A DNA stretch of 64,000 nt from the NCBI GenBank assembly GCA_017439185.1, contig JAFRTM010000003.1, positions 1-64,000 of the forward strand, given 5' to 3'. This stretch comes from Bacteroidales bacterium (GTDB lineage Bacteria; Bacteroidota; Bacteroidia; Bacteroidales; P3). Under the pieces are notes generated by a model. It was given only the letters and a program-made list of their open reading frames with translations, did not search any database and was not told the origin of the DNA. Below, piece by piece: positions 30,416 to 47,640 of the stretch; within the stretch, counting starts at the first letter, position 1, and every line of letters begins with the position of its first letter. Both the position numbers and the translations under genes were made by a program.

Positions 30416-30431
30416 AGCAACTTCCGTGCCA
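30416..30431 (-). promoter_or_regulatory. Sigma-54 (RpoN) type promoter of htpG
   Basis: On the minus strand TGGCACGGAAGTTGCT matches the -24/-12 consensus TGGCACG-N4-TTGCW exactly, with the required 10 bases between GG and GC. It predicts a start near 30405 and a leader of about 55 bases, which includes the hairpin GGCG/CGCC at 30392-30402. Confidence 0.75.
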
Positions 30432-30444
30432 CCCGCTCCAGCCC

Positions 30445-30490
30445 TGTCAGCAGTCTGCCATTTCTGTCAGTACTGACACAAATGGCAGAC
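30445..30490 (-). promoter_or_regulatory. Palindromic upstream activating sequences of htpG
   Basis: A 38-base palindrome at 30453-30490 (one mismatched pair) is made of two inverted copies of TGCCATTTCTGTCA, or a close variant, around a central GTAC. Another half-site TGTCA is at 30445. The centre lies about 66 bases upstream of the predicted start, where sigma-54 activators usually bind. Confidence 0.65.
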
Positions 30491-30561
30491 CTCCCCCTCT
30501 CGAACCAATGTAGGCTTTACCCTTACATTGTGTCCTACCAACCTCCTATGTGCCTCCTACC

Positions 30562-30584
30562 TGCCACCTCTGCCATTTCTGTCA
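30562..30584 (-). promoter_or_regulatory. Second upstream activating element of htpG
   Basis: TGCCACCTC directly followed by TGCCATTTCTGTCA (30571-30584), the same 14-mer (reverse complement TGACAGAAATGGCA) found in the palindrome and before the exonuclease gene. Confidence 0.5.
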
Positions 30585-30609
30585 CACCACCCGCCTCCTC
30601 TCCGCAACC

Positions 30610-30640
30610 AAAAAAGTCCCCGGAAACATCTCCCGGGAAC
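30610..30640 (-). terminator. Terminator of the guaA-to-barrel gene cluster
   Basis: On the minus strand GTTCCCGG pairs with CCGGGGAC (one G-T pair) around a 9-base loop, followed by six T. It lies about 80 bases after the stop of the beta-barrel gene. The rest of 30351-30721 holds the htpG promoter and its activator sites. Confidence 0.7.
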
Positions 30641-30721
30641 TTCACTTATTATATATAATACCTTATATATATATTACTCAATCTCTCCAGGTAAAAGAAA
30701 GTTGCCTATTGGAAATCCTGA

Positions 30722-31282
30722 TTATTGGTGTTTGCGTGGCATAAATTCAAGTGCAAGGTGTAGTGATGCTCCGCTAAAAGGATACCACGCCGTTTGTGTA
30801 TTGGTTACAGCAGTATAGAGAAGTATTTCATACCCGGCAGAAAGGTTAATGGCAGTCTGGCTTCCGACTTCAATACGGAGGCCAGCCCCGAGGTCAAGAT
30901 AGGCGGCAGGACTGAGTTCAAGCGTAATGCCATCTCGAATTTGGAAGAAAGCCTTGTATCTGGTGGAAGATCTTATATCCCATCGCACTGCTACAAAGGC
31001 AGGAATACTATAGAGCCATGGAGTAACATTGGTTGGTGGAAAATAGTTAAATGCAATACCTCCCCCGAGAAAAAATATGTCGCTGAACTGGCGACCATGG
31101 ATTGTTCCAAGTGTAATGCGTCCGTACGGATTCGTACCAAAACCTACGGTATATCCAGTATATGCAAATCCGCGATAGCCTTTGTCGATACCGTAACGTG
31201 GTGAGTCTCCATTTAGAGTTGTAGCATTAGATGCCGTAATAGTTAATAATACGAGAAAAAATGCTATAAATAAACGTTTCAT
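30722..31282 (-). CDS. Small outer-membrane beta-barrel protein
   Basis: 186 residues. A signal peptide (MKRLFIAFFLVLLTITASNA) is followed by alternating hydrophobic/polar stretches typical of an eight-strand barrel: GFAYTGYTVGFGTNPYGRITLGTIHGRQ, IFFLGGGIAFNYF, PAFVAVRWDIR, YKAFFQIRDGITL, YLDLGAGLRIEV, AINLSAGYEILLY. A final strand (ASLHLALEFMPR) closes the barrel. No enzyme motif is visible; function unknown. Codons are more AT-rich than in the neighbouring lpx genes. It is the last gene of the minus-strand cluster and is followed by a good terminator. Confidence 0.8.
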   Translation of the reverse strand: MKRLFIAFFLVLLTITASNATTLNGDSPRYGIDKGYRGFAYTGYTVGFGTNPYGRITLGTIHGRQFSDIFFLGGGIAFNYFPPTNVTPWLYSIPAFVAVRWDIRSSTRYKAFFQIRDGITLELSPAAYLDLGAGLRIEVGSQTAINLSAGYEILLYTAVTNTQTAWYPFSGASLHLALEFMPRKHQ

Positions 31283-31308
31283 AATGTATGTTTTTTAGTG
31301 TTGATTCC

Positions 31309-32094
31309 TCAGTCTCTCCTCATATAGGTGTAGCCCTTCATCAGGCCCGTGTTGGCGCTGCCGATGAAGCCCAGGATAACCTTCGCCTCGTCGGTGTTGC
31401 CGTAATGTTCCTTCACCGCCTCCACCGCATGGCTGATAGTCAAGCCCTTCTGGAAAATATAGCGGTAGATGTCCTGTATGTTGTTGATCTGCTCCTGGGT
31501 GTAGCCTCTGCGTTTAAGACCTAGCGAGTTCACTCCGGCGTAGCTGATCGGATATCTCGCAGCCTTCACAAACGGCGGAATGTCCTTGTCAATCAGTGAG
31601 CCTCCTGCCGTGATCACGTGCGAACCGATATGCACGAACTGCAGTATCGCAGTCTTGCCGCCCATTATCACGTAGTCGCCCACAATGATATGTCCCGCCA
31701 GCGTCGTGTTGTTGGCAAACACACAGTTGTCGCCCACCACGCAGTCGTGCGCCACATGCACGTAGGCCATTATCAGGTTGCTGTTTCCCACCACCGTCTT
31801 GCCCGAGGCCGCCGTGCCGCGGTTGATGGTGCAGCATTCGCGAATCACGTTGTTGTCGCCGATTTCTACAGTGCTGTATTCTCCAGAGAACTTCAAGTCC
31901 TGAGGCACTGCTGCAATAACCGTGCCGGGGAATATCTTGCAGTTCTTACCAATTCGAGCACCGGGGAATATGGTCACATTGGGACCAATCCAGCATCCGT
32001 CGCCAATTTCCACATCCTCGTATATGGTGGTGAAGTTACAAATTGTCACATCCTTGCCTATCTTGGCATTAGGGTTGAGGTCGTATAGAGTCAT
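31309..32094 (-). CDS. lpxA: UDP-N-acetylglucosamine acyltransferase
   Basis: 261 residues. First step of lipid A synthesis: adds a 3-hydroxyacyl chain from ACP to UDP-GlcNAc. Left-handed beta-helix hexapeptide repeats fill about 1-180 (ISNFTTIYEDVEIGDGCWIG pattern), with the catalytic His in HVAHDCVVGDNC. The C-terminal helical part includes LGLKRRGYTQEQINNIQDIYR, the standard LpxA tail. Its start overlaps the lpxC stop by 4 bases (ATGA). No FabZ gene or domain lies between them, although that is the usual order in Bacteroidetes. Confidence 0.96.
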   Translation of the reverse strand: MTLYDLNPNAKIGKDVTICNFTTIYEDVEIGDGCWIGPNVTIFPGARIGKNCKIFPGTVIAAVPQDLKFSGEYSTVEIGDNNVIRECCTINRGTAASGKTVVGNSNLIMAYVHVAHDCVVGDNCVFANNTTLAGHIIVGDYVIMGGKTAILQFVHIGSHVITAGGSLIDKDIPPFVKAARYPISYAGVNSLGLKRRGYTQEQINNIQDIYRYIFQKGLTISHAVEAVKEHYGNTDEAKVILGFIGSANTGLMKGYTYMRRD

Positions 32095-33011
32095 ATTTTG
32101 TTGTGTATATAATTCATCAAATATTTTGCAAAAGCGTTATTGGCCTTATGTCCGGGCTTGTACACCTTGAAATGCCCTTTCAGCAGGCATCCCGTAAGCC
32201 TTATGTCACCCAGGAAGTCCAGCAGCTTGTGGCGTGCCGGCTCGTTGGGGAAATAGAGGTCAGTGGTGTTCAGTAGGCCGTCGTGCACGCGGAACTGCGA
32301 CGTGTCCTTGTGGAACGTCTTGCCCAGCCTCTTAAGCTGACGTGATCCCAGTTCCTTGTTCACAAACACCAGCGCGTTGTCCAGGCTTCCGCCCTTTATG
32401 AGATTCAGGTGCAGCAACGGCTCGATCTCGTGAAGAAACACGAACGTGCGGCTGGGTGCTATCTGGCCGGCATATTGAGAGTAGTCCTCCAGCACTGCCT
32501 CCTGCACTCCTATCACGTTGCCGGTAAAGTCAATCTTGCAGTTCACCGAGAAATGGTCCGAAGGCTCCACGTCATACACCGAGCCGGTCGGCGTATACTC
32601 GAAATGGAGCGGTTCCGTTATCTCGAAATAGTGGCGCTCGTTCTCCAGCTGCACCGTTCCCACCCTTTGCAGCTGCTGCAGCCACGGCAGTGCCGAACCG
32701 TCGAGGATAGGCACCTCACCTCCGTCGAGTTCCACCAGTGCGTTGTCGATTTGCATTCCGTGCAGAGCCGACATCAAGTGCTCGATCGTCGCAATGGTAT
32801 GGCGTCCGGTGCCGAGCGTGGTGCCGCGTGCCGTGCTTCCCACCTTGTCGGCGAGGGCGTGCTGGGTGATGATGTTAACCCGGTCGGTCCTCCGGAAAGC
32901 GATGCCGAAGTTGCCCGCCGCCGGTCTCACCAGCACCGTCACCGTCTTGCCGGTATGCAGTCCGGGTCCGGTAAGTCTGAATGGTATTCTGATTGTTGTC
33001 TGTTGTTCCAT
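32091..33011 (-). CDS. lpxC: UDP-3-O-acyl-N-acetylglucosamine deacetylase, single-domain form
   Basis: 306 residues. Zinc deacetylase, the committed step of lipid A synthesis. Metal and catalytic residues match LpxC: His78 in IEHLMSAL, His261 and Asp265 in HKLLDFLGD, His288 in PGHKANNAF. Length equals that of the single-domain proteobacterial enzyme. In most Bacteroidetes LpxC is fused to FabZ (about 460 residues); here the protein stops straight after the LpxC domain and overlaps lpxA. So the FabZ part has been lost or is encoded elsewhere. Confidence 0.95.
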   Translation of the reverse strand: MEQQTTIRIPFRLTGPGLHTGKTVTVLVRPAAGNFGIAFRRTDRVNIITQHALADKVGSTARGTTLGTGRHTIATIEHLMSALHGMQIDNALVELDGGEVPILDGSALPWLQQLQRVGTVQLENERHYFEITEPLHFEYTPTGSVYDVEPSDHFSVNCKIDFTGNVIGVQEAVLEDYSQYAGQIAPSRTFVFLHEIEPLLHLNLIKGGSLDNALVFVNKELGSRQLKRLGKTFHKDTSQFRVHDGLLNTTDLYFPNEPARHKLLDFLGDIRLTGCLLKGHFKVYKPGHKANNAFAKYLMNYIHNKI

Positions 33012-33020
33012 TGTGTTGTC

Positions 33021-34691
33021 TTATCTGCGTCCCTGGGCGGGCACAAAGTGGTAGTTGGAGAGTTTGTAGAAGTGGGCGGTCTCGTTCTCAAATCCGTGGC
33101 CAGGGTCGCTCTGCTTGAAGTTCAGACCATAGACCATGCCGGCAGGTTTCGACATCACCGGGTTCTTGAAAAACTCAGTTCCCCTCTGGCTGAGGCCGCT
33201 GGCAAAGTATATCATCAGGTCGTTGCCGCTCGCAGCATAAAGACCTTGAGGCTCGGTCTTGAACTCTGCCCGGTACAGGTCGGCGAAAGCCTTCTTGTCG
33301 GGGTCGGAGAAGTCTATCTCGGTATAGATTGTCGTATAGTGGGCGTGGTCCAGCTGCATGAAGTCCAGGTCGCTGAATTTGTTCAGGTAGTTTTCCATAG
33401 ACACCAGCGTGACGCCAGTTTTCACCATTATCAGTCGGTTGAGCAGCGTGCTTATCTGTATGTGGTTCTTGTCCTTGTTCTGGTCGTAGATGTTGAGTAC
33501 CACACAATTGGGAGTCTTCTTCAGCGTTGCCGGCAACTTGGAGTTGGCGCTCCAGTCGAAGAAGGTGTATTCCACTTTCCCGTTAGCTTTCAGTTCCTTT
33601 TCCAGCACTTCGCGCATACGGGCCTCGTTGCGGGAGCCTGTGTGCACGATGTAGAGGTGAGGCTTGGCGGGACTGTGCTCGATCATCCTGAGCAGGCATT
33701 TCACCTGACCTTCCATCGACGGCATGCATTTGAACACGTAAGGGTTGCCTTCCACTATCTCGCTACGCTCGGACAGCGGGTTTACAATGAACAGCTGGTT
33801 CTGCTGTGCCAGGTTGGCGGCCTGCTCGAACTGCTGTCTCGGCAGCAGTGCAATCAGGATGTCCGACTCGGCCACACGGTGGGTGTTGAACGCCGTGGTG
33901 ACATCCTGGGTGGTGGTTCCCGACACGTCCACGACGTTGAGGACAACCTTGCAGCCGGTGCGTTCCAACCGCTCCAGGCCCATCAATATGCCTTCGTAGA
34001 ACTGGATGTATTCAAAAGCGCCGTAGTTTTTCTTGCCTCGCTGGTCGAGGTCGAACTTGGTGGTGGATATCTTGTCCAGGTCGGCCAGATGCAGAGGCAT
34101 CATCACAGAGACGTGCACCTTGCCCGCCTCGGTCAGCGGCCTTATGACGGCAGGCGCTGCCGGCGGTTTGGGAGTGTACTGGGCGGGAGTGCGGCCCTGC
34201 TTGGCCGGTTGGGTGGCAGGCTTCTGCTGTGTGGCGGCAGGCTTGGACTCGCTCTTGGTGTCCGTTTTCGAGTCGCCCGCTCCGGCTACCTTTACCATCT
34301 GGCCCGCTTTCAGTCCGTTGGCTTTTACGTCGGGGTTGAGCTCGTAGATGTCCTCCACCGTCATGCCGTAGGCCTTGGAGAGACTGTAGAGAGTCTGTCC
34401 CGGCTCAACCTTGACATAGTGGTAGCTCTTGGCCTCTTCCACCACGGTCTGACCCTTGTAGGGCAGCCAGATGGTGTCGCCCACCGAGATGTGGTGTATG
34501 TCGGTCTTGAGCACCGCCTCGTAGTCTTTCACGCCGTAGGCGCGGCTGATGGAATAGACAGTCTGGCCTTCGCCAACGATGTGGACGTAGTATTTCTTAC
34601 CGTTGAGAGTCTGCACCTGGTCGGAGATGGCGATCTGAGCCATGGCACCGAATACGGGGAGCAGCATTATCAATATTGTAAGTTTTTTCAT
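33021..34691 (-). CDS. LysM-domain exported protein with type 1 periplasmic-binding fold
   Basis: 556 residues. Signal peptide (1-18, ...PVFGAMA). Two LysM domains at about 33-78 (YYVHIVGEGQTVYSISRAYGV) and about 90-135 (YHYVKVEPGQTLYSLSKAYGM), which bind peptidoglycan. Then a Lys/Pro/Thr/Gln-rich linker (about 138-180) and a domain like the Leu/Ile/Val-binding ABC proteins (about 190-540: VSVMMPLHLADLD, YEGILMGLERLERTGCKV). The domain order is common in Bacteroidetes; no permease genes are present, so transport is unlikely. It probably has a cell-wall sensing or assembly role. It sits between guaA and lpxC. Confidence 0.88.
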   Translation of the reverse strand: MKKLTILIMLLPVFGAMAQIAISDQVQTLNGKKYYVHIVGEGQTVYSISRAYGVKDYEAVLKTDIHHISVGDTIWLPYKGQTVVEEAKSYHYVKVEPGQTLYSLSKAYGMTVEDIYELNPDVKANGLKAGQMVKVAGAGDSKTDTKSESKPAATQQKPATQPAKQGRTPAQYTPKPPAAPAVIRPLTEAGKVHVSVMMPLHLADLDKISTTKFDLDQRGKKNYGAFEYIQFYEGILMGLERLERTGCKVVLNVVDVSGTTTQDVTTAFNTHRVAESDILIALLPRQQFEQAANLAQQNQLFIVNPLSERSEIVEGNPYVFKCMPSMEGQVKCLLRMIEHSPAKPHLYIVHTGSRNEARMREVLEKELKANGKVEYTFFDWSANSKLPATLKKTPNCVVLNIYDQNKDKNHIQISTLLNRLIMVKTGVTLVSMENYLNKFSDLDFMQLDHAHYTTIYTEIDFSDPDKKAFADLYRAEFKTEPQGLYAASGNDLMIYFASGLSQRGTEFFKNPVMSKPAGMVYGLNFKQSDPGHGFENETAHFYKLSNYHFVPAQGRR

Positions 34692-34717
34692 TGTCGCTGT
34701 TTTACTCGTTCATTAGG

Positions 34718-36244
34718 TTATTCCCACTCTATGGTTGCCGGCGGTTTTGAGCTTATGTCGTAGACCACGCGGTTGACGCCTTTTACTCGATTGATGATGT
34801 CGTTAGAGACACGAGCGAGGAATTCGTAGGGGAGGTGGCTCCAGTCGGCGGTCATGCCGTCGACAGACTCCACAGCGCGGAGAGCCACGACGCTCTCGTA
34901 GGTGCGTTCGTCGCCCATCACGCCGACGGACTGAACCGGCAGGAGCATGCAGCCCGCCTGCCACACCTTGTCGTAGAGGCCGTTGTCGCGGAGGCCGCGG
35001 ATGAAGATGTCGTCAACCTCCTGGAGGATGCGTACCTTTTCCGGGGTCACGTCGCTGAGGATGCGGATAGCCAGTCCTGGGCCGGGGAAGGGATGACGCC
35101 CTATGAGCTCGTCTTTGATGCCCAATTGACGGCCCACGCGGCGCACCTCGTCTTTGAAGAGGGAGCGGAGAGGCTCGACGAGCTGGAGTTTCATATAGTC
35201 GGGGAGTCCGCCCACGTTGTGGTGGCTCTTGATTGTCTGTGAAGGGCCTTTGACCGAACTGCTCTCAATCACGTCGGGGTAGATGGTGCCCTGGCCGAGC
35301 CATTTGGCGTCGGTGATGAGCTTGGCTTCGGCATCGAAGACGTCGATGAAAGTCTTGCCGATTGCCTTGCGCTTCTTCTCCGGGTCGGTGACGCCGGCGA
35401 GGACGGAATAGAAACGGTCCTTGGCGTCGACACCTTTCACGTTGAGACCCATGTCCTTGTAGGACTCGAGGACTCCCTCGAACTCGTTTTTGCGGAGGAG
35501 TCCGTTGTCGACGAAAATGCAGTGGAGCTGATGGCCGATGGCGCGGTTGAGGAGGACGGCAGCGACCGTGGAGTCGACGCCGCCGCTGAGGCCGAGGACT
35601 ACTTTGTCGCCGCCCACTTTGGCTTTGAGTTCAGCTATGGTGGTCTCGATGAAAGACTCGGGAGTCCAGCTCTGTGAGCAGTGGCAGATGTCCACGACGA
35701 AGTTGCGGAGGAGCGTCTGTCCGTCGGTGGAGTGGTGCACCTCGGGGTGGAACTGAATGGCGTAGGTGGGCTCGCCCTCGATGTGGTAGCCGGCGAAGCG
35801 CACGTTGTCGGTGGAGCATATGCAGTGGTAGTTGTCGGGGACCTCCTCGATGGTGTCGCCGTGGCTCATCCAGACCTGGCTTCCGGTGGAGATGCCTTTC
35901 ATGAGTGGCGACTCGGAGTCGATGAACTGGAGGTTGGCGCGGCCATATTCGCGTATCTTGGACTGCTGGACTTTACCGCCGCCCCATTTGGCGAGATACT
36001 GTGCGCCGTAGCATACGGCGAGGAGAGGCAGGCGGCCCTTGATGTTGGACATGTCGGGCACGGGTGCGTCGGCTGCGTTGCAGCTGTATGGGCTACCGGA
36101 AAAAATCACACCTTTGATGTTGGAAGTGAGCTCCGGAATTTTGTTAAAAGGATGAATTTCACAATAAACATTAAGTTCGCGAACTTTGCGTGCAATCAAC
36201 TGAGTGTATTGAGAACCAAAGTCTAAGATAAGTATTGAATCCAT
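34718..36244 (-). CDS. guaA: GMP synthase, glutamine-hydrolysing
   Basis: 508 residues. Converts XMP to GMP with ATP and glutamine. Class I amidotransferase domain at about 3-190 with nucleophile Cys78 (LLAVCYGAQ) and the catalytic His/Glu in [11 protein letters not shown]-pyrophosphatase domain with P-loop [10 protein letters not shown] near 218-227. C-terminal dimerisation domain ends in [15 protein letters not shown], the conserved GuaA tail. A -7 box TAGTTTTGC lies 22-30 bases before the start codon, which leaves a very short leader. First gene of a minus-strand cluster. Confidence 0.97.
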
Positions 36245-36265
36245 ATTTATTTATTATAATAAATT

Positions 36266-36274
36266 GCAAAACTA
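36266..36274 (-). promoter_or_regulatory. -7 box of the guaA promoter
   Basis: TAGTTTTGC on the minus strand. It predicts a start near 36261, 17 bases before the guaA ATG. Confidence 0.6.
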
Positions 36275-36366
36275 CGAATTTATTTTTTAATGGCAAAAAA
36301 AAGTTTTCCACAATCTGTTATTTAGTACCAGAAAGGGTGAAATTATTGAAAAATTAGTGGAATATT

Positions 36367-36397
36367 TTTGTGGAGTAAAATAATGTTAGTATCTTTG
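36367..36397 (+). promoter_or_regulatory. Promoter of the B12-riboswitch transcript
   Basis: A -33 TTTG at 36367-36370 and a -7 TATCTTTG at 36390-36397, 19 bases apart, which is the ideal spacing. The transcript would begin near 36402, ahead of the riboswitch. Confidence 0.75.
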
Positions 36398-36464
36398 CAA
36401 CGCAATTGACTGAGGGGTTACTGCTTTTAAGTTTTTTGCAATCAGTTATTTGACACATGGAATA

Positions 36465-36632
36465 GTCTTTTAGGTGCCGCTTGAAAAAGAGGCTAAGAGG
36501 GAATCACGTGGGAATCGTGAGCTGTCGCGCAACTGTAAGTTCCGCAAAAAAAACGATGACGGGAGAGACCATTGGACGAGGAGTCCGAGAAGGTGCCGCC
36601 AATCGGGGACGAGTCAGGAAACCTGCCTTTGA
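36465..36632 (+). promoter_or_regulatory. Cobalamin (B12) riboswitch
   Basis: The conserved blocks of the aptamer occur in order: AGGTGCCG (36472), AGAGGGAATCACGTGGGAATC (36498-36516), the B12 box as GCTGTCGCGCAACTGTAAG (36521-36539), CCATTGG (36569-36575), GAGAAGGTGCCGCC (36587-36600) and GAGTCAGGAAACCTGCC (36611-36627). After it, TGCCTTTGA can pair with TCAAAGGC around 36623-36660, a possible expression platform that overlaps the end of the aptamer. There is no T-run, so control is not by a simple terminator. Confidence 0.88.
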
Positions 36633-36849
36633 GACTTGGCAATGCTTTCGCGTCAAAGGCGGTTGTCAGCGTTACGGAAGTTCTTGGGAGACGAGATGAT
36701 TCTTACCCAGAAAAGAAGTGACGAGAGGAACGCAGGAATAGAGTTGCTGCGGTTGTGTTTTTCCACCACTGGGGGGCAGGGGAGCCCAGGTGCGATAGCA
36801 TTGTATATGTGTTTTGTTAGAGAAAGAAATGTAAAACACTATAAATGCT
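36633..36849 (+). other. Long spacer between riboswitch and CoA-transferase gene
   Basis: 217 bases with no convincing gene. An ATG at 36696 opens a frame that runs into the CoA-transferase gene in another phase; its codons look random. The bases just before the CoA-transferase start are AT-rich (TTAGAGAAAGAAATGTAAAACAC in part), giving only a weak ribosome-binding site. Confidence 0.4.
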
Positions 36850-38157
36850 ATGAACTGGAAAGACGAATACAAGAAAAAGGTTTCTACGCCCGAGCGGGCG
36901 ATTGCCGACATACACGACGGCAATTGTGTGATAATGGGGCATGCGGCTGCTGCGCCGAGGGTGGTGCAGAAGGCGTTGGCTGAGCATTGTCTGGACTATA
37001 ACGATGTGTTGTTGTTCCACATGACGACGTTGGGGGAGAACGAGTGTCTTCAGCCGAAGTGCTACGGGCATTTCCGGCATGTGTCGAATTTTCTGGCGGC
37101 GAACTCGCGAGAGGTCGTGGAAGAGCTGGCCGGAGATTTCTTTCCTGCCTATTTCAAGGATGTGCCGGGAATGATAGGAGGAGACATCCCGTGTGACGTG
37201 GCAGTGTTTCAGGCCACGCCACCGAACGAGGAGGGATACTGCTCGTTGGGAGTGTCGTGCGACTATGCGATAGCGGCTATCAGGGCGGCGAAGACGGTGA
37301 TAATAGAGACGAACGAGCTGATGCCGTTCACATACGGGGAGACGATGATACATGTGTCGCAGATAGACCATATTCTGCCGTGTGCATACAGGTTGCCGGA
37401 GTTGCTGTCGCAGGAGCCGTCTGAGACAGAGTTGGCGATAGGGAAGAATTGTGCGGAACTGATAAGCGACGGCTCGACGCTGCAGTTGGGTATTGGTACG
37501 ATACCGAACGCAGTGTTGGCGTCTCTCGGGGAGAAGAACGACTTGGGAATACACTCGGAGATGTTTTCGGACGGAGTGGCGAGACTTATGAGGAGTGGCA
37601 ACATCAATGGGAGGAGGAAGACGATACATAAAGACAAGGTGGTGGCGACGTTTGTGATGGGTTCGAATGATTTGTATGAGTTTGTGGACGGGAATCATGA
37701 CATAGAATTGTATCCAGTTGATTATGTGAACGATCCGTTTGTGATAGCGCAGAATTACAGGATGGTGTCGATCAATTCGTGTCTGGAGGTAGATTTGATG
37801 GGGCAGGTGAGCAGTGAGGCGATAGGAATGAGACAGTACAGCGGAACCGGAGGTCAGGTGGATTTTATAAGAGGAGCGTGTTTGTCGAGGGAAGGGAAGA
37901 GCATAATAGCTATGCCGTCGACGGCGGCGAACGGAACGATATCGAGGATAAAACCTTTTTTGACGCCCGGTTCGGCGGTGACGACGTCGAGGAATGACGT
38001 GGACTATATAGTTACAGAGTATGGATCGGCGAGATTGAAGGGAAGGACGCTGATGCACAGGGCTGAGGACTTGATAAGGATAGCGCACCCGAAGTTCAGG
38101 CCGGAACTGGCGGAGGAGTATGAGAGGAGGTTTGACTGTCCGTTAATTTATGAATAA
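36850..38157 (+). CDS. Acetyl-CoA hydrolase/4-hydroxybutyrate CoA-transferase family protein
   Basis: 435 residues. A family I CoA-transferase: moves CoA between acetate and another acid. Both halves are present: N-terminal domain (about 5-200) and C-terminal domain with LGIGTIPNAVL, the catalytic Glu237 in GIHSEMFSDG, and the CoA-binding GTGGQVDFIRGA. It most resembles 4-hydroxybutyrate or butyryl-CoA:acetate CoA-transferases, but propionyl-CoA:succinate transferases of the same fold cannot be excluded. The upstream B12 riboswitch suggests a link to B12-dependent methylmalonyl-CoA metabolism. Codons are rich in ATA and AGG. marC follows 12 bases later. Confidence 0.9.
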   Translation: MNWKDEYKKKVSTPERAIADIHDGNCVIMGHAAAAPRVVQKALAEHCLDYNDVLLFHMTTLGENECLQPKCYGHFRHVSNFLAANSREVVEELAGDFFPAYFKDVPGMIGGDIPCDVAVFQATPPNEEGYCSLGVSCDYAIAAIRAAKTVIIETNELMPFTYGETMIHVSQIDHILPCAYRLPELLSQEPSETELAIGKNCAELISDGSTLQLGIGTIPNAVLASLGEKNDLGIHSEMFSDGVARLMRSGNINGRRKTIHKDKVVATFVMGSNDLYEFVDGNHDIELYPVDYVNDPFVIAQNYRMVSINSCLEVDLMGQVSSEAIGMRQYSGTGGQVDFIRGACLSREGKSIIAMPSTAANGTISRIKPFLTPGSAVTTSRNDVDYIVTEYGSARLKGRTLMHRAEDLIRIAHPKFRPELAEEYERRFDCPLIYE

Positions 38158-38169
38158 AAAAGCAGAGAT

Positions 38170-39513: not shown

Positions 39514-39560
39514 GGGGGTGAATGTTGATATGTGGATAAGTTGATATGTTGAAATCGGGG

Positions 39561-39906: not shown

Positions 39907-39936
39907 TTTACAATATAAAAAATGTTTGTATATTTG
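39907..39936 (+). promoter_or_regulatory. Promoter of the bamD operon, possibly leaderless
   Basis: A -7 box TATATTTG at 39929-39936 with a -33 TTTA near 39907. The bamD ATG is at 39942, so the expected start point falls on or within a base or two of the A of the start codon. Confidence 0.6.
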
Positions 39937-39941
39937 CGGCT

Positions 39942-40757
39942 ATGAAAAATTGTTGGCTTATAGTGCTAAGTATGGTGACAGTCAGTGTGTTGGCTGGCTG
40001 TAGCGGTACGAGTAAACTGGTGAAAAGTAACGATTATGACGCTAAATACGAGGCTGCGGTGAAGTTTTACGAGGAGGGGAGTTACTCGAAGGCGATACAG
40101 TTGTTTGAGAATTTGTCGATGCATTACAGGGGGAGGGACTATTCGGAGAATATCTCGTGGTATTACGGTCAGTCGTTGCTGAAGGAGAAGGATTATTACA
40201 CGGCTGCGTACCAGTTCAAGAATTTTGTGAGGCAGTTTCCGTATAGTGTGCATGTGGAGGAGGCGATGTTTTTGAGTGCTTACTGCAAGTATATGGATTC
40301 GCCGGAGTATACGCTGGACCAGACGGTGACGAGGGAGGCGATCACGGAGTTTGAGCAGTTTTCGGACAAGTATCCGCAGTCGGTGCACATACCGGAGGTG
40401 AACGGGTATCTGGATGAGATGAGGGGTAAGCTGATTATGAAGGATTATGAGATTGCGTACGGGTATTACAGGATTCAGTCGTATCATGCGGCGTATGTGG
40501 CGTTGCAGAGTTTTCTGAATTATTACCCTGACTCGCCAAAGAGGGAGGAGGCGATGTACTATATGCTGAAGTCGGGGTATGAGTATGCGATAAACAGCAA
40601 GGAGGAGAAGGTGAGGGAGAGGCTGCAGCTGGTGGTGAACGATTTTGACAAGTTTGCGTCGTCGTTTACGGATTCGAAGTATATGGCGAGTGCGCAGGTG
40701 ATATACAGCAAGAGCAAGGCGGCTCTGGCGAAGATAGAGGCGGGAGAGAAGCAATGA
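39942..40757 (+). CDS. bamD: Outer membrane assembly lipoprotein BamD
   Basis: 271 residues from ATG 39942. The lipoprotein signal MKNCWLIVLSMVTVSVLAGC puts the lipidated Cys at 20. The mature part is built of TPR helices: KYEAAVKFYEEGSYSKAIQLFENL (TPR1), YYGQSLLKEKDYYTAAYQFKNFVRQFP (TPR2), then three more to about 250. This is the BamD/YfiO fold, a part of the complex that inserts beta-barrel proteins. An in-frame start further upstream lies before the promoter and is not used. It heads the bamD-rpoZ-coaBC operon found across Bacteroidetes. Confidence 0.94.
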   Translation: MKNCWLIVLSMVTVSVLAGCSGTSKLVKSNDYDAKYEAAVKFYEEGSYSKAIQLFENLSMHYRGRDYSENISWYYGQSLLKEKDYYTAAYQFKNFVRQFPYSVHVEEAMFLSAYCKYMDSPEYTLDQTVTREAITEFEQFSDKYPQSVHIPEVNGYLDEMRGKLIMKDYEIAYGYYRIQSYHAAYVALQSFLNYYPDSPKREEAMYYMLKSGYEYAINSKEEKVRERLQLVVNDFDKFASSFTDSKYMASAQVIYSKSKAALAKIEAGEKQ

Positions 40758-40787
40758 ATCAGGGAACAAATAAATTTAACAAATAAA

Positions 40788-41237
40788 ATGGAAAAGAAGG
40801 AAACAGCAAAGGTGGTGGCGAAGAAGCCCCGCGTGATCAACACGACGATTACACGAAACACAAATGATTTCAGCCAGATGACTGATAATATCTATGAGAC
40901 GGTGGCGATGCTTTCGAAGAGGGCGAACCAGCTGGCGGTGCAGGAGAAGAGGGAGCTGCACAAGAAGATAGAGGAGTTTGCGACGGGAACGGACGCGATA
41001 GACGAGATGTATGAGAACCGCGAGCAGATAGAGGTAGTGAAGCATTACGAGCAGATGCCGAAGCCGGTGCTGAACGCTACGCAGGAGTATCTGGACCACA
41101 AGCTTTTCTATAAGAACCCTATGAAGAGCAAGACGATGGTGAGCATGATGGAGGAGCTGGAGGACGAGCTGGTGGAGTCGGCGGTGAAGACGAACGACGA
41201 GGAGAAGCCGAAGAAGCGCAAGAGCGCGAAGAAATAA
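40788..41237 (+). CDS. rpoZ: RNA polymerase omega subunit-like protein (Bacteroidetes type)
   Basis: 149 residues. The core TDNIYETVAMLSKRANQLAVQEKRELHKKIEEF (about 31-63) matches the Bacteroidetes RpoZ-like family, with the omega motif region IYETVAMLSKRANQL. Basic N-terminal (KVVAKKPRV) and C-terminal (EEKPKKRKSAKK) tails flank it. The position between bamD and coaBC is the standard one for this gene. Omega helps assemble RNA polymerase and, in some bacteria, binds ppGpp. Whether this distant version does so is not known. Confidence 0.85.
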   Translation: MEKKETAKVVAKKPRVINTTITRNTNDFSQMTDNIYETVAMLSKRANQLAVQEKRELHKKIEEFATGTDAIDEMYENREQIEVVKHYEQMPKPVLNATQEYLDHKLFYKNPMKSKTMVSMMEELEDELVESAVKTNDEEKPKKRKSAKK

Positions 41238-41246
41238 GAGGAGGAG

Positions 41247-42446
41247 ATGAAGATAATAGTCGGCATAAGCGGCGGTATAGCGGCGTATAAGGTGCCCCAG
41301 CTGGTGAGGTTGCTGAAGAAGAGAGGGCATGAGGTGCAGTGTGTGGTCACTGCGCATGCGCTGGAGTTTGTGACGAAGGTGACGCTGGAGACGGTGTCGG
41401 AGAGGCGGCTGTACTGTGACTTGTTCGACGACGGAAACGAGCGGACGACGGAGCATATCTCGCTGAAAGACTGGGGCGATGTGCTGCTGCTGGCTCCGGC
41501 GACTGCGAATATCATAGGGAAGATGGCGAACGGGATAGGCGACGACGCGCTGAGCACGCTGCTGCTTTCGTTTGGCGGCAAGCCGATGTTCGTTTGCCCG
41601 GCGATGAACACGCAGATGGCGGAGAATGTGGCGGTGGCGGAGAACTTGAGGGTGCTGGAGGAGAGGGGAGTGAGGGTGATGGATTACGAAGTGGGAGAGC
41701 TGGCCTGCGGAGCAGTGGGGAAGGGGAGAATGGCAGAGCCGGAGAAGATAGTGGAGTGGCTGGAAGAGAAGCTGGAAGAGGGGAAGAGCATGAGAGGGAA
41801 GAGGGTGCTGATTACAGCCGGTCCGACCTACGAGAAGATAGACGCGGTGCGGTTTATAGGCAACTATTCGAGCGGGAAGATGGGCTTTGCGCTTGCCGAA
41901 GAGTTTGCGGAGAGAGGGGCAGAGGTGACGCTGGTGGCCGGACCGTGCAACCAAACGACGAAGAGCCGTGGAGTGAGAAGGATAGACGTGGAGTCGGCGC
42001 AGGAGATGTACGACGCGGCAACCGAGGCGTTCGAGAGAGCCGATGTGGCGATACTGTCGGCTGCAGTGGCCGATTTCCGTCCCGACCACCAAGAAGAGCA
42101 GAAGATAAAGAAGCAGGGCGACGGAGGAATGACGCTTAAGCTGGTGCAGAATCCGGATATACTGGCCACACTGGGAAAGAGGAAGAGAGAGGGTCAGCTG
42201 CTGGTGGGCTTTGCGCTGGAGACGAACAACGAGATGACCTACGCCACGGAGAAGCTGAAGAAGAAAGGGCTGGACATGATAGTGATGAACTCGCTGAGAG
42301 ACGAGGGAGCCGGCTTCGGGACAGACACCAACAAGGTTACGATAATAGACAAGGCAGGGAACGTGGAGAGCGGCGAGCTGAAAAGCAAGAGAGAGGTGGC
42401 CGGCGACATAGCCGACGCGGTGGAGAGGCAGATGGAAAACAAATAA
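41247..42446 (+). CDS. coaBC: Phosphopantothenoylcysteine decarboxylase/phosphopantothenate-cysteine ligase
   Basis: 399 residues. Two consecutive steps of coenzyme A synthesis. CoaC flavoprotein half at about 1-180: GISGGIAAYKV (FMN loop), CPAMNTQMAENV, and the catalytic Cys in ELACGAVGKGRMAEP. CoaB half at about 185-399: LITAGPTYEKIDAVRFIGNYSSGKMG, then AAVADFRP and a Lys-rich stretch, with EGQLLVGFALETN. Starts 9 bases after rpoZ and is followed 9 bases later by the transglycosylase gene, so all four are one operon. Confidence 0.96.
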   Translation: MKIIVGISGGIAAYKVPQLVRLLKKRGHEVQCVVTAHALEFVTKVTLETVSERRLYCDLFDDGNERTTEHISLKDWGDVLLLAPATANIIGKMANGIGDDALSTLLLSFGGKPMFVCPAMNTQMAENVAVAENLRVLEERGVRVMDYEVGELACGAVGKGRMAEPEKIVEWLEEKLEEGKSMRGKRVLITAGPTYEKIDAVRFIGNYSSGKMGFALAEEFAERGAEVTLVAGPCNQTTKSRGVRRIDVESAQEMYDAATEAFERADVAILSAAVADFRPDHQEEQKIKKQGDGGMTLKLVQNPDILATLGKRKREGQLLVGFALETNNEMTYATEKLKKKGLDMIVMNSLRDEGAGFGTDTNKVTIIDKAGNVESGELKSKREVAGDIADAVERQMENK

Positions 42447-42455
42447 AGGAAAGAA

Positions 42456-43442
42456 ATGAAGAAACTGAGCATAGTGGCAATAGTACTCGCCGGAGTGGCC
42501 CTTCTGGCGCTTGTGGGCGAGACGTTGATATTTGCGACGCACAAAGAGACGCCGATAGAGGTTCAGAAGCAGGCGATACAGCACGGTTCCAGGATATATG
42601 CGCCGCCGATACCCGACAGTGTGAGTTTCTGTGGAGAGAAGCTGCCGCTGGAAAACTACTATGTGAAAGAGGCGCTGGACAGAGAGCTGATAGTGAACAT
42701 GTACGGGCACACCAATATGATATTGTGGATGAAGAGAGCCAACCGAGTGTTCCCGGTAATAGAGCCGATACTGAAAAAGAACGGAGTGCCGGCGGATATG
42801 AAATACCTGTGTGTGGCAGAGAGCGGACTGACCACGGCCACGTCGCCCGCCAAGGCACAAGGATACTGGCAGTTCATGGAGATGACTGGGAAGACCTACG
42901 GCTTGGAGATAAACGCCGACGTGGATATGCGCAACGACTTGGAGGCCTCGACCGAAGCGGCGTGCAAGTTCCTGAAAGTGCTGTATTCCCATCTGGGAAG
43001 CTGGTCGGCGGCAGCGGCAGCCTACAATTGCGGAGAGGGAGGATTGTCGAAGAGGATGGGGCAGCAGTCGGCCAAGTCGTACTACGACACAAGGCTTAAC
43101 AGCGAGACGGCGCGATATGTGTTCAGAATAGTGGCGATAAAGCTGGTGATGCAACATCCGCAAGACTACGGGTTCTACCTGAGGAAATGCGATCTTTACC
43201 CGGTGATACCCACCACCACAGCTACGCTGGAAGGACAGAACGTAGATTTGTACGAGTTTGCCAAGAAGAAGGGAGTGAGCTACAAGGTGCTGAGAGAGCT
43301 GAACCCGTGGCTGAACGCCGAGAAGATAGTGAACAAAGGCAACAAAAAATATACGGTGAAGCTGCCTACCGAGAAAGGGACGAGCCTTTCGAAAATCCTG
43401 AAAGACGAAGACCGGTCAACTTCGATAGTCGGACGATTCTGA
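42456..43442 (+). CDS. Membrane-bound lytic transglycosylase (MltD-like)
   Basis: 328 residues. An N-terminal membrane anchor (about 5-26), then a transglycosylase SLT domain at about 100-230 with the catalytic Glu in YLCVAESGLTT, the ATSPAKAQGYWQFM motif and AYNCGEGG. It cleaves the glycan strands of peptidoglycan to form anhydro-muropeptides. The last 80 residues (about 250-310: LYEFAKKKGVSYKVLRELNPWL) look like one LysM-type module. It follows coaBC by 9 bases and is followed by uvrA after a 29-base gap. Confidence 0.92.
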   Translation: MKKLSIVAIVLAGVALLALVGETLIFATHKETPIEVQKQAIQHGSRIYAPPIPDSVSFCGEKLPLENYYVKEALDRELIVNMYGHTNMILWMKRANRVFPVIEPILKKNGVPADMKYLCVAESGLTTATSPAKAQGYWQFMEMTGKTYGLEINADVDMRNDLEASTEAACKFLKVLYSHLGSWSAAAAAYNCGEGGLSKRMGQQSAKSYYDTRLNSETARYVFRIVAIKLVMQHPQDYGFYLRKCDLYPVIPTTTATLEGQNVDLYEFAKKKGVSYKVLRELNPWLNAEKIVNKGNKKYTVKLPTEKGTSLSKILKDEDRSTSIVGRF

Positions 43443-43471
43443 GGAGCTCCGCAGAGAAAGAGGAGAAAAAG

Positions 43472-46312
43472 ATGGAAGAATTAGAGGTATTAGGAGCCCG
43501 GTCGCACAATTTACAGAATGTAGATGTCACGGTGCCGCGCAACAAGCTGGTGGTGTTTACCGGATTGAGCGGCAGCGGAAAGTCGTCGTTGGCGTTCGAC
43601 ACGATATATGCCGAAGGGCAGAGAAGATATATGGAGACATTCTCGGCATATGCCAGGCATTTCATAGGAAACATGGAGAGGCCCGACGTGGACAGAATCA
43701 ACGGATTGAGTCCCGTGATCTCGATAGAGCAGAAGACGACGAACAAGAACCCGCGGTCGACGGTGGGTACGGTGACGGAGATATACGATTTTGTGAGGCT
43801 TCTGTATGCGAGAATCGGCGATGCCTATTCCCATATCACGGGGAAGCCGATGGTGAAGCATACAGAAGGGCAGATACTGGAGCTGATAAAAAACGACTAC
43901 GAGGGGAAAGAGGTGATAGTGCTGGCTCCGCTGGTGAAGAGGAGGAAGGGACATTACAGAGACCTGTTTGTTCAGGTGGCGAAGAAAGGATTCCTGAGAG
44001 TGAGGATAGACGGGGAGATAAAAGAGTTGACCTACAATATGCAGGTGGACCGATACAAGACGCACGACATAGAGCTGGTGATAGACCGGCTGAGAGTGAA
44101 CGAGAAGAGCGAGAGCCGGCTGCAGGAGGCAGTGAAGACGGCATTCAAGCACGGGAAGGGAGTCTTGATGGTGCTGGAGCATAGCATAATACCCGGACAG
44201 GAACACATACACTACTACAGCAAGCTGCTGATGGACCCCGAGAACGGAATTTCCTATCCCGAGCCGGAGCCCAACACGTTCTCGTTCAACTCGCCCTATG
44301 GAGCGTGCCCGAAGTGTAACGGACTTGGAGAAATCACCGAGATAGACATAAAGAAGCTGATACCCGACCCGAAGAAGAGCATAAAAGAGGGAGCGTTTGA
44401 GGTGCTGGGGAAATATTCGGCGACGAACTATTCGTACAGGCAGATGGAGAGGTTGGGCAGGAGTTACGGATTCTCGATAGACGACCCGGTGGAGTCGTTC
44501 AGCGAGGAGGCCATGAACGCGATACTGTACGGCACGAGCGACTACAGCGGCTACCATGGGACGGACGACGACTATGGCACAGGATTCCAGGGCATAGTAA
44601 ACTATATATTGGAGCTGACCAATGACGAGAGTCCGGCGTCGCTGCAGAAGTGGGCGAACAGCTTCATGAATCCGATAGAGTGTCCCGAATGCCACGGCCA
44701 CCGGCTGAAAGAAGAGTCGCTGAGTTTCAGGATAGACGGCAAGAACATAGGAGAGGTGGCGGACATGGACCTCACGGAGCTTTACGAGTGGGCAACCACG
44801 CTGGAGGGCAAACTTGACGGACACAAGAGGACAATAGCGCACGAGATACTGCACGAGATAACTACGAGGACCAAATTTATGATAGACGTGGGTATCGGAT
44901 ACCTGTCGCTGAACAGGAGTTCCAAGTCGCTGTCGGGCGGAGAGAGCCAGAGGATAAGGCTTGCGACGCAGATAGGGGCGCAGCTGGTGAACGTGCTGTA
45001 TATCCTCGACGAGCCGTCGATAGGGCTGCACCAGAGAGACAACCGCAAGCTGATAAACGCCATGAAAGAGTTGCGGGACTTGGGGAACAGTGTGATAGTG
45101 GTGGAGCACGACAGAGACATGATATTGAATGCCGACTATGTGGTGGATATCGGACCCGGAGCGGGAATCAACGGAGGGAAGATAATATTTGCGGGAAGCC
45201 ACGAGGAGTTGCTGTCGGGGAATCACCACACCACGACGCTCGACTACCTGCTGAGGAACAAAGACATTGAGATTCCCGAGAGGAGAGAGATGAAAGACTG
45301 CCAGTATCTGGTGATAGAGGGGGCGAAGGGGAACAACCTGAAAGACGTTACGGCAAAGATACCGCTGAGGCGGTTTGTGTGTGTAACGGGAGTGTCGGGG
45401 AGCGGGAAGTCGTCGCTTATAAACGAGACGCTGCATCCGATACTGTCGTCGTATTTCTTCCACTCGCAGGCGCGGCCGTTGGAGTACAAGGCGGTATATG
45501 GAATAGACCAGGTGAACAAGGTAATAGAGATAGACCAGTCGCCGATAGGAAGGAGTCCGAGAAGCAATCCGGCGACATACGTCGGGGTGTTTGACGAGAT
45601 CAGGCAGTTGTTTGCCCAGTTGCCGAGTGCGAGAATCAGAGGGTATAAGCCGGGGAGATTCTCGTTCAATGTGGCCGGCGGGCGCTGCGAGAACTGCAAG
45701 GGAGCGGGAGTGAGAACGATAGAGATGAACTTCCTGCCCGACGTGTATGTGAACTGTGAGGTGTGCAACGGGAAGAGATACAACCGCGAGACGCTGGAGA
45801 TAAGGTATAAAGGAAAGAGTATCGCCGATGTGCTGGACATGACGGTGAACGAGGCGGTGGACTTTTTCGAGTCGTATCCCAAGATACACAAGAAGCTGAA
45901 GACGATAAAAGACGTGGGACTGGGATATATCACGCTGGGGCAGTCGGCTACGACCCTGTCGGGCGGAGAGGCGCAGAGGATAAAGCTGGCCAGCGAACTG
46001 TCGAAGCCCGACACGGGAAATACGCTGTATATACTTGACGAACCTACCACCGGACTGCATTTCGAGGACATAAAGGTGCTGCTGCAGGTGCTGCAGAGGC
46101 TGGTGGACAAGGGGAACAGCGTGCTGGTGATAGAACACAACATGGACGTGATAAAGGTGGCGGACTGGATAATAGACATGGGGCCCGACGGGGGCAAGAA
46201 GGGAGGAATGATAGTGTTTGAGGGGACTCCCGAGGAGCTGGCGGAGCAGAAAGACAACGCCACGGGAATCTTCCTGAGAGAGGAACTGGAGGCCTGCGGA
46301 GGGAAGAAATAA
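43472..46312 (+). CDS. uvrA: Excinuclease ABC subunit UvrA
   Basis: 946 residues from ATG 43472 (MEELEVLGARSHNLQNVDV). The DNA damage-recognition ATPase of nucleotide excision repair. Two ABC ATPase halves: Walker A GLSGSGKSSL (31-40) and GVSGSGKSSL (in the second half); ABC signatures SLSGGESQR and TLSGGEAQR; Walker B YILDEPSIGL and YILDEPTTGL. Two zinc-finger sets: CPKCNGLG with CPECHGHR, and CENCKGAG with CEVCNGKR. The long insertion region (about 85-280) is typical. The frame is open upstream to 43187 only as a shadow of the transglycosylase gene. Confidence 0.97.
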   Translation: MEELEVLGARSHNLQNVDVTVPRNKLVVFTGLSGSGKSSLAFDTIYAEGQRRYMETFSAYARHFIGNMERPDVDRINGLSPVISIEQKTTNKNPRSTVGTVTEIYDFVRLLYARIGDAYSHITGKPMVKHTEGQILELIKNDYEGKEVIVLAPLVKRRKGHYRDLFVQVAKKGFLRVRIDGEIKELTYNMQVDRYKTHDIELVIDRLRVNEKSESRLQEAVKTAFKHGKGVLMVLEHSIIPGQEHIHYYSKLLMDPENGISYPEPEPNTFSFNSPYGACPKCNGLGEITEIDIKKLIPDPKKSIKEGAFEVLGKYSATNYSYRQMERLGRSYGFSIDDPVESFSEEAMNAILYGTSDYSGYHGTDDDYGTGFQGIVNYILELTNDESPASLQKWANSFMNPIECPECHGHRLKEESLSFRIDGKNIGEVADMDLTELYEWATTLEGKLDGHKRTIAHEILHEITTRTKFMIDVGIGYLSLNRSSKSLSGGESQRIRLATQIGAQLVNVLYILDEPSIGLHQRDNRKLINAMKELRDLGNSVIVVEHDRDMILNADYVVDIGPGAGINGGKIIFAGSHEELLSGNHHTTTLDYLLRNKDIEIPERREMKDCQYLVIEGAKGNNLKDVTAKIPLRRFVCVTGVSGSGKSSLINETLHPILSSYFFHSQARPLEYKAVYGIDQVNKVIEIDQSPIGRSPRSNPATYVGVFDEIRQLFAQLPSARIRGYKPGRFSFNVAGGRCENCKGAGVRTIEMNFLPDVYVNCEVCNGKRYNRETLEIRYKGKSIADVLDMTVNEAVDFFESYPKIHKKLKTIKDVGLGYITLGQSATTLSGGEAQRIKLASELSKPDTGNTLYILDEPTTGLHFEDIKVLLQVLQRLVDKGNSVLVIEHNMDVIKVADWIIDMGPDGGKKGGMIVFEGTPEELAEQKDNATGIFLREELEACGGKK

Positions 46313-46330
46313 TAGAATTTGGGTAGAGAG

Positions 46331-47308
46331 ATGCAGTTTGCAGGAGAGATGATATCGTTGTTTGTGGCAGTGTCGTGGACGGCCACCGCGCTGTTTGCGG
46401 AGGTGGCGTCGAAGAGGATGGGGTCGCTGCCGCTGAATGTGGTGAGGATGACGATGTCGCTGCTGTTGCTGACGGGGACGTTGTGGCTGATAATGGGGAC
46501 GCCCTACCCGAGGTATGCCGACGGAGGGACGTGGTGGTGGCTGGTGCTGTCGGGAGTGGTGGGATATGTGATAGGCGACTACTGCCTGATGCAGGGATAC
46601 ATATATATAGGGTCGCGTTTCGGGCAGCTGTTCATGACCCTTTCGGCGCCGACGGCCGCGATAATGGGGAGAATGCTGATAGGAGAGGAGATGAGGCCGC
46701 TGGCGATAGCTGGAATGATGGTGACGCTTACGGGAATAGCGATTTCGATATTGTCGAGAGGGAGCGAGGAGAAGAAGCTGAGGCTTGCGTTGCCCGGGAA
46801 GGGAATATTTTTTGCGAGCATGGCGGGCATCTGCCAGGGATTGGGGCTTGTGCTGAGCAAGATAGGACTGGAACATTACGACCGGGCGATAGAGATGCAG
46901 GGAGTTGACAGTCAGGTGGCCGTTGAAGGAGCTGCGGTTGGAGTGCCGCTGTTTCTGGCGGTGCCGTTTGCGGCGACGATGATAAGGGCGTCGATAGGGC
47001 TTGTGGGTTTTATGCTGGTGCTGATGGTGTTCAACAAAGACTGGAAGGAGAAACTAGGGAGGGCGGTGAAGGACCGGAAGGCGATGTGGTGTGTGCTGGG
47101 CGCTACGGTGTTCGGGCCGTTTATAGGGGTGAGCGCGTCGCTGCTGGCCACCCAATATACGTCAACGGGGATAGCGCAGACCCTGTTTGCGTTGACGCCG
47201 ATACTGATAATAGCGCCTGCTGCATTGCTGTTCAAGCAGAAGGTGAGGGTGAAAGAGGTGATAGGGGCGGTGATCAGTGTGGGAGGAGTTTGCCTGTTTT
47301 TTATTTGA
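46331..47308 (+). CDS. EamA/DMT-superfamily transporter
   Basis: 325 residues from ATG 46331 (MQFAGEMISLFVAVSWTATAL); an upstream TTG at 46319 is less likely. Ten hydrophobic helices are spread over the whole length in two EamA repeats, with GTWWWLVLSGVVGYVIGDYC and the second repeat including GATVFGPFIGVSASLLATQYTSTGIAQTLF. A drug/metabolite-type exporter of the inner membrane; the substrate is unknown. It starts 18 bases after uvrA and ends the operon. Confidence 0.9.
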   Translation: MQFAGEMISLFVAVSWTATALFAEVASKRMGSLPLNVVRMTMSLLLLTGTLWLIMGTPYPRYADGGTWWWLVLSGVVGYVIGDYCLMQGYIYIGSRFGQLFMTLSAPTAAIMGRMLIGEEMRPLAIAGMMVTLTGIAISILSRGSEEKKLRLALPGKGIFFASMAGICQGLGLVLSKIGLEHYDRAIEMQGVDSQVAVEGAAVGVPLFLAVPFAATMIRASIGLVGFMLVLMVFNKDWKEKLGRAVKDRKAMWCVLGATVFGPFIGVSASLLATQYTSTGIAQTLFALTPILIIAPAALLFKQKVRVKEVIGAVISVGGVCLFFI

Positions 47309-47392
47309 GAGAGAGGGTCGGAGAGAGAGGTAGTGGCAGAGGTGTAGAAAGGGCCGAAAACGGTCAATTTTAACACTTTGGTAAGTTGCTGG

Positions 47393-47450
47393 TTTATAGG
47401 ATACTTATAGGTATCAAGTCTGACACAAGTCTGACATAACTCTGATGCAA
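47393..47450 (+). repeat. Dispersed intergenic repeat, copy 2
   Basis: Core GGTATCAAGTCTGAC at 47410-47424, preceded by TTTATAGGATACTTATA and followed by ACAAGTCTGACATAACTCTGATG. Same family as the repeats at 39672 and 61400. It sits just before the activator array. Confidence 0.7.
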
Positions 47451-47488
47451 GTTTGAGATAGAAATATGGGTGAGGCGGCAGAGGAGTA

Positions 47489-47611
47489 TGACAGAAATGG
47501 CAGAAGTGTGACAGGGGGGTTGGCAGAAGTTTTTTTTGACGACGGTAGAGGGTTGGCAGAGGTATGACAGGAGAGTGGCAGAGGTGGCAGAAGGGTATGA
47601 CAGAAGTGGCA
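47489..47611 (+). promoter_or_regulatory. Array of ten TGACA/TGGCA half-sites upstream of the exonuclease gene
   Basis: Half-sites start at 47489, 47498, 47509, 47521, 47554, 47565, 47576, 47585, 47598 and 47607, mostly 9-12 bases apart and all in the same orientation. The first two form TGACAGAAATGGCA, identical to the htpG element; the last two form TGACAGAAGTGGCA. The array ends 13 bases before a sigma-54-like site. Confidence 0.7.
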
Positions 47612-47624
47612 GAGGGGAGAGAGG

Positions 47625-47640
47625 TGGCACGGAAGTTGTT
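47625..47640 (+). promoter_or_regulatory. Sigma-54 (RpoN) type promoter of the exonuclease gene
   Basis: TGGCACGGAAGTTGTT: the -24 half is perfect, and the -12 half is TTGT instead of TTGC. 15 of 16 bases match the htpG site. It predicts a start near 47652 and a leader of about 75 bases. Confidence 0.65.

Follow-up and report, generated by a model that had tools for sequence, protein, structure and literature searches.

A stretch of 64,000 nucleotides from a Bacteroidales genome (GenBank assembly GCA_017439185.1, contig JAFRTM010000003.1, positions 1 to 64,000; hereafter, the window) carries two sigma-54-type promoters, one before htpG, which encodes Hsp90, and one before a cluster of an exonuclease gene and the protease gene lon, each with a series of TGNCA half-sites upstream. 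We place at roughly 0.78 the probability that these and other chaperone genes of the genome form a sigma-54 proteostasis regulon, opened by a single sensor-less activator on phased TGNCA half-sites beside the promoter. The initial annotation of the window had proposed one activator for htpG and lon; the two share one layout and the assembly has one true activator, which probably binds upstream of both. The regulon is widely conserved and its architecture uncommon, the presumed enhancer lying beside the promoter in a fixed register and not at a remote site.

Sigma-54-type promoters and half-sites before htpG and lon

The two promoters, their half-sites and the genes that follow are located in the window as listed here.

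30416..30431, minus strand: sigma-54 promoter of htpG, TGGCACGGAAGTTGCT; predicted transcription start at about 30405 if GC is taken as -13/-12
30445..30584, minus strand: htpG half-site ladder, TGNCA at -18, -29, -38, -47, -56, -135, -144 and -153 from the T of TGGCAC
30453..30490, no strand assigned: 38-base palindrome within the htpG ladder, formed by a pair of inverted 14-mers on either side of GTAC; one mismatched pair
28470..30350, minus strand: htpG (Hsp90), 626 amino acids; Pfam PF00183/HATPase, NCBIfam HtpG above cut-off
47625..47640, plus strand: sigma-54 promoter of the exonuclease-lon cluster, TGGCACGGAAGTTGTT; predicted transcription start at about 47651
47421..47611, plus strand: exonuclease-lon half-site ladder, TGNCA at -18, -27, -40, -49, -60, -71, -104, -116, -127 and -136, plus -193 and -204
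47727..48440, plus strand: predicted 3'-5' exonuclease (PolB-exonuclease related), first gene of the cluster; Pfam PF10108
48480..50987, plus strand: lon, ATP-dependent protease, 835 amino acids; Pfam Lon domains, NCBIfam TIGR00763 above cut-off

A pattern scan agrees with the initial annotation on the position and strand of both sites. The htpG site is the single exact match to TGGCACG-N4-TTGCW in the window, and the lon-side site has one mismatch (TTGTT). One mismatch is likewise found in CGGCACGGTTATTGCA at 31912 (minus strand). With up to two mismatches the window gives 10 matches versus 9.85 expected, so the boxes alone are without significance there. The layout of a sigma-54 promoter, with GG and GC ten bases apart in TGGCAC-N5-TTGCW, is exact at htpG and has one mismatch at lon.

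The upstream sequences had been described as arrays of a 14-mer, TGACAGAAATGGCA. Copies do occur upstream of both sites (exact at 30456, 30571 and 47489, with one mismatch at 30474 and 47598), the palindrome at htpG is real, and the ten half-sites reported for the lon side were recovered as ten TGNCA between -136 and -18, with the two more distal ones in addition. What did not stand is the 14-mer as the unit. It consists of two TGNCA half-sites, TGACA and TGGCA, and relatives share the half-sites in other arrangements, for example TGACA-N3-TGTCA or TGACA-N3-TGACA; we therefore set the palindromic 14-mer aside and read the element as phased TGNCA half-sites.

The same promoter layout across the genome

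The assembly comprises 2.15 Mb in 28 contigs and is 92.3% complete. TGGCAY-N5-TTGYW occurs at 14 sites in the whole genome versus 10 for a reversed-pattern control. The 14-mer with at most one mismatch lies within 200 bp upstream of five of these 14 sites, where 0.13% would be expected for each (binomial probability ~7e-12). Conversely, 11 of the 14 such copies in the genome sit at most 200 bp upstream of TGGCAY-N5-TTGYW sites, which ties most copies of the 14-mer to such promoters. The dnaK promoter is a sixth site, with a two-mismatch copy of the 14-mer.

The genome scan for further chaperone genes that the initial annotation had suggested was fruitful: one element, promoter plus repeats, stands before htpG, exonuclease-lon, dnaK (HSP70), grpE, a clpB-type gene and hsp20. 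A seventh promoter, TGGCTCGGAAATTGTG with a ladder, is upstream of a TolC-type outer-membrane efflux gene (C1:27222), and the same layout is thus carried by six chaperone or protease promoters and one TolC-type gene. Pfam confirms the domains of hsp20, grpE, dnaK, the clpB-type gene (Clp_N, AAA and AAA-lid in the part that was read) and the outer-membrane efflux gene. By its box and ladder, the TolC-type gene links envelope export to the chaperone regulon. The dnaK frame (C24) has an in-frame stop after 466 codons, beyond which HSP70-like sequence continues in the same frame; this is either a sequencing fault or real. Eight of the 14 TGGCAY-N5-TTGYW sites are without a ladder and were taken as chance, seven of them lying within open frames of at least 249 codons; this open-frame argument is weak, as the lon-side site also lies within a long open frame (404 codons).

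The geometry of the half-sites was profiled over the seven promoters. Within 80 bp of the -24 box they hold 36 TGNCA, versus a shuffle mean of 1.6 (maximum 8). The half-site centres have a period of 10.4 bp (R 0.70; 0.54 in the best of 2000 random placements) and form a ladder on one helical face. Spacings between neighbours are mostly 9 (20 times), 11 (8), 13 (4) and 10 (3), and part of the periodicity arises because the 14-mer, with its halves 9 apart, is reused. Counted from the T of TGGC, the nearest half-site is at -18 in htpG, lon and grpE, at -17 in dnaK and hsp20, at -19 in the TolC-type gene and at -28 in clpB; the usual nearest half-site is thereby about -43 from the predicted transcription start, if GC is -13/-12.

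One sensor-less activator and its sigma factor

Sigma-54 polymerase is unable to open promoters without an AAA+ activator protein, and a genome with one activator must therefore use it at its sigma-54 promoters. Searches for rpoN and for an activator with a helix-turn-helix (HTH) domain, both proposed at the outset, each found their gene. The rpoN product carries the complete set of three sigma-54 domains, among them the one that interacts with the activator. A single true sigma-54 activator is present in the assembly (PF00158, 225.6 bits); the four other PF00158 matches score 22-37 bits, and one of them is the clpB-type gene.

The activator has 423 amino acids, with an AAA+ domain from residue 18 (17 residues precede it), an AAA lid, a long linker of variable sequence that includes a conserved coil-like stretch, and HTH_8; it is without a sensor domain. 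Tested separately, the AAA+ domain scored 222.8 bits against PF00158, with GSFTGA in the translation as the sigma-54-contacting G[AS]FTGA loop, and HTH_8 scored 41.3 bits against PF02954 (cut-off 22). The conserved HTH ends in ISERTLYRKIKEY and probably binds the TGNCA motif. The protein resembles the phage-shock activator PspF in having AAA+ and HTH domains and no N-terminal sensor, and TIGR02974 matches it end to end (1-336 of 336). However, it falls below the cut-offs of all 25 NCBIfam families shown, and its PspF score of 253.8 bits versus a cut-off of 443.55 indicates that it is not a PspF; the linker with its coil-like stretch and the target genes differ as well.

Activator matches were found in 293 of 295 genomes of the order, with E <=1e-100 in 280 and exactly one match in 25, a count for which genomes with more than six candidates mostly had only six scored. 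Full-length matches also occur in the seven genomes of the class outside the order. The two order genomes without a match (G092 and G194, genus g93) both have rpoN and are 68-74% complete, a level at which the genus is uninformative as a natural knock-out.

In this genome the activator gene (C28) lies between dnaG-like and aroA-like genes, and the sequence that precedes it resembles the end of MiaB in several relatives that belong to the class but not to the order (names by recognition). The rpoN frame (C24, locus 577-2877; 766 amino acids) stays open and reads on into an M23 peptidase with LysM. Its counterpart has 450-589 amino acids in 37 other genomes, stopping after the sigma-54 domain in the 26 whose end was read; the rpoN-peptidase frame is either a fusion specific to this lineage or the product of faulty assembly.

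Conservation within the order

We compared the upstream regions of htpG and grpE in 30 genomes of the order, hand-chosen from 295 with complete ones preferred, using TGGCA-N6-TTG as the strict box and -16 to -19 or -24 to -27 as the register windows. The strict box was detected in 21 of 30 htpG and 23 of 30 grpE upstream regions (shuffle means 0.23 and 0.20; 0 and 1 on the opposite strand). TGNCA is most frequent at -17 (17 promoters) and at -25 (12), and a weaker cluster lies near -46. An in-register half-site is present in 36 of 43 boxed promoters (shuffle mean 1.07, maximum 5), one of the 44 having been left out because too little upstream DNA was available. No strict box was found upstream of the activator gene (0/30) or of rpoN (0/26, the loci parsed out of 30), which served as controls.

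With the register windows unchanged, a second set was taken from a separate collection, the best 80 of 577 htpG loci; the two sets are not fully independent because species may overlap. The strict box is present in 66 of the 80, of which 41 have an in-register half-site (shuffle mean 1.6, maximum 6), among them Carboxylicivirga sp. M1479, Sunxiuqinia dokdonensis, Alistipes sp. Marseille-P5061 and Draconibacterium sediminis. At the htpG promoter of Parabacteroides distasonis the box is accompanied by half-sites only at -47 and -60. In another genus of the window's family, both loci of one genome (G183) have TGGAA-N6-TTG with half-sites in register at -17 and -25.

Beyond the order, and the absence of HrcA matches

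For the wider phylum, one grpE locus per genome was considered, and 30 loci were read including that of this genome (31 genomes taken). Five of six class-level loci have the box, each with an in-register half-site (two of these five loci share one genus), and the box is present in three of 23 loci outside the class, one of them in register. A search for HrcA gave no match in any of 38 class genomes, this genome included, and a match in 16 of the 23 phylum genomes outside the class; in 15 of these 16, hrcA is directly before grpE on the same contig. The HrcA/CIRCE system is thus tied to the same genes, but HrcA is a repressor, whereas the class genomes without an HrcA match carry sigma-54 boxes instead. 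From these counts the class appears to have switched from HrcA to sigma-54 control, or never to have had HrcA.

A proposed mechanism

In the mechanism that we propose, sigma-54 RNA polymerase would form closed complexes at the -24/-12 boxes that precede htpG, exonuclease-lon, dnaK, grpE, clpB and hsp20, and these complexes would be opened by the sole true sigma-54 activator in the assembly, the AAA+ protein without a sensor domain. Its HTH_8 domain is predicted to contact the TGNCA half-sites, which, lying on one helical face and starting just upstream of the polymerase at about -43 from the predicted start, may keep the activator beside its target and so make the usual long-range looping of the DNA unnecessary. 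The signal would presumably be heat or protein misfolding. More tentatively, and in our judgment with the odds against it, HrcA repression in the class (presumably Bacteroidia) might have been replaced by one sensor-less activator on a polymerase-touching ladder of half-sites set roughly one helical turn apart, acting without a loop, inactive through free chaperones such as DnaK and released when these engage damaged protein. It is the lack of a sensor domain that suggests the part given to free chaperones.

Evidence against the regulon and alternative explanations

Several observations weigh against the proposed regulon or restrict it. Three 14-mer copies out of 14 escape the strict sigma-54 scan: one is upstream of the TolC-type gene with TGGCTCGGAAATTGTG, and the two others, exact copies at C2:41765 and C24:166920, have no sigma-54 box visible on inspection by eye. 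The predicted transcription start of grpE falls past the first in-frame ATG, and for this reason a later ATG is the likely start codon. A true groESL was not found in the genome, in a search that gave one Cpn10 match and did not cover groEL; the match (C10:23956), which we take to be a GroES-like paralogue, precedes an alaS-like gene, and no promoter/half-site element was found at its locus. At 92% completeness, a second activator may have escaped the assembly.

Conservation is also incomplete. The strict box is absent before htpG in nine and before grpE in seven of the 30 genomes of the first set, and before htpG in 14 of the 80 loci of the second, where 25 of the 66 boxed loci are without an in-register half-site. 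By record title, 19 of these 25 are Prevotella, Prevotellaceae or Segatella, from a total of 21 boxed loci of this Prevotella type. In Prevotella denticola and Segatella albensis, for example, the box is present and the preceding 60 bases contain no TGNCA. A search of 21 hand-chosen loci of this type revealed no replacement motif; 13 of these loci are without TGNCA within 60 bp and eight have one or more, one of the eight being in register. In the other genus of the window's family, four of six loci (G079 and G273) are without a box, even of the TGGAA variant; they nonetheless contain TGACA-N3-TGTCA pairs. Finally, no half-sites accompany the boxes of genome G001, which gave one activator match; only 32 bases precede its htpG box.

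A side observation on the boxes concerns 13 htpG promoters, 12 of the Prevotella type and one of Bacteroidaceae by title, which have near-consensus boxes and no TGNCA in the preceding 60 bases. Many other promoters pair a T-rich box with half-sites, and a trade-off between box strength and enhancer is possible.

The loci that keep the box without in-register half-sites, which are most of the Prevotella type, would fit an explanation in which the activator opens the sigma-54 promoters from solution or from a distant site and the TGNCA ladder is bound by another protein, such as a stress-sensing repressor or an architectural protein. The half-sites begin at about -43, much nearer than the glnA enhancer sites at about -90 and -140, in the portion of that source available (PMC7408454), and the activator's own binding at the ladder is a prediction. 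The fixed register of the half-sites to the -24 box, together with the conserved HTH ending in ISERTLYRKIKEY that the activator keeps, nevertheless argues for the activator, and we consider another binder unlikely, although it is the strongest of the competing accounts. Much less probable is a reading of the sites as housekeeping promoters of the Bacteroidetes kind (-7 box TAnnTTTG), each preceded by a repressor operator, in place of sigma-54 promoters. In many relatives the spacer is T-rich and ends in TTTG (TGGCATTTTTTTTG), resembling a -7 box, and the raw count of sigma-54-like sites is barely above its control, but the sites of this genome, such as TGGCACGGAAGTTGCT, have mixed spacers and the register runs from TGG to TTG. 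Moreover, the mapped starts of the same genes in Flavobacterium psychrophilum have -24/-12 motifs distinct from TAnnTTTG, according to the sections of that study at hand (PMC9723704).

The exact 14-mer copies at C2:41765 and C24:166920 lie in similar intergenic stretches and might suggest a mobile or tandem repeat that is near stress genes by chance. The position of 11 of the 14 copies upstream of sigma-54-like sites, and the TGNCA register kept in other order genomes mostly at spacings unlike those of the 14-mer, make such a coincidence highly improbable. A two-mismatch copy at C2:42012 is likewise in a long intergenic stretch without a visible sigma-54 box, and the stretches around the three copies are similar; the site may have another use there or may be an intergenic repeat.

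Relation to known systems

To our knowledge, sigma-32 is absent from Bacteroidota. In the comparisons below, COG0466 is presumably Lon. The initial annotation knew of no described regulon of this kind, but one has been described in the phylum: in Flavobacterium psychrophilum, sigma-54 starts were mapped before groESL, lon, dnaK, grpE-dnaJ, htpG and clpB, judging from the parts of the report available (PMC9723704; 2021). The same gene set is thus behind -24/-12 promoters in both. The difference is that those parts leave the activator open among three PF00158 proteins and do not mention a half-site element, whereas the present proposal has one activator without a sensor domain and a phased ladder close to the promoter (PMC9723704). 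A 2025 survey, as far as its accessible text goes, reports chaperones, Hsp90 and ATP-dependent proteases (COG0466 among them) as enriched predicted sigma-54 targets in Bacteroidota and cites earlier work for sigma-54 control of grpE and groES; unlike the present analysis, that text gives no activator or enhancer element for the chaperone and protease targets (PMC12316311). The broad idea of sigma-54 control of chaperones is therefore already published for the phylum.

Among activators that bind upstream sites, the NtrC type at glnA offers the closest parallel in principle, with an AAA+ activator on upstream sites driving a sigma-54 promoter, as is predicted here. The glnA sites are about 90 and 140 bp upstream and act by looping, in the available portion of the source (PMC7408454), whereas the half-sites described here start beside the promoter in a fixed register. 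Such a proximal enhancer would be unusual for a sigma-54 system, a kind that is generally taught to act at a distance through looping. Neither a fixed-register ladder nor a single sensor-less activator was found in the literature searched, whose coverage left out most subscription journals. As far as that literature goes, the switching of chaperone genes without HrcA is little described in this group, and the present analysis names a specific regulator gene, a list of genes and a DNA element whose spacing follows a measurable rule.

Neighbouring genes in the window

The nearest relatives of HtpG are in three genomes of the same family, at 64-66% identity, followed by Bacteroidales and Paludibacteraceae entries among the best 80 of 577 records. 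Downstream of lon lies one further gene.

50984..52426, plus strand: protein with PD40 and weak OmpA-like matches; first 4 bases shared with the end of lon

This gene is perhaps co-transcribed with lon, and through the overlap the lon part of the regulon may extend to the envelope.

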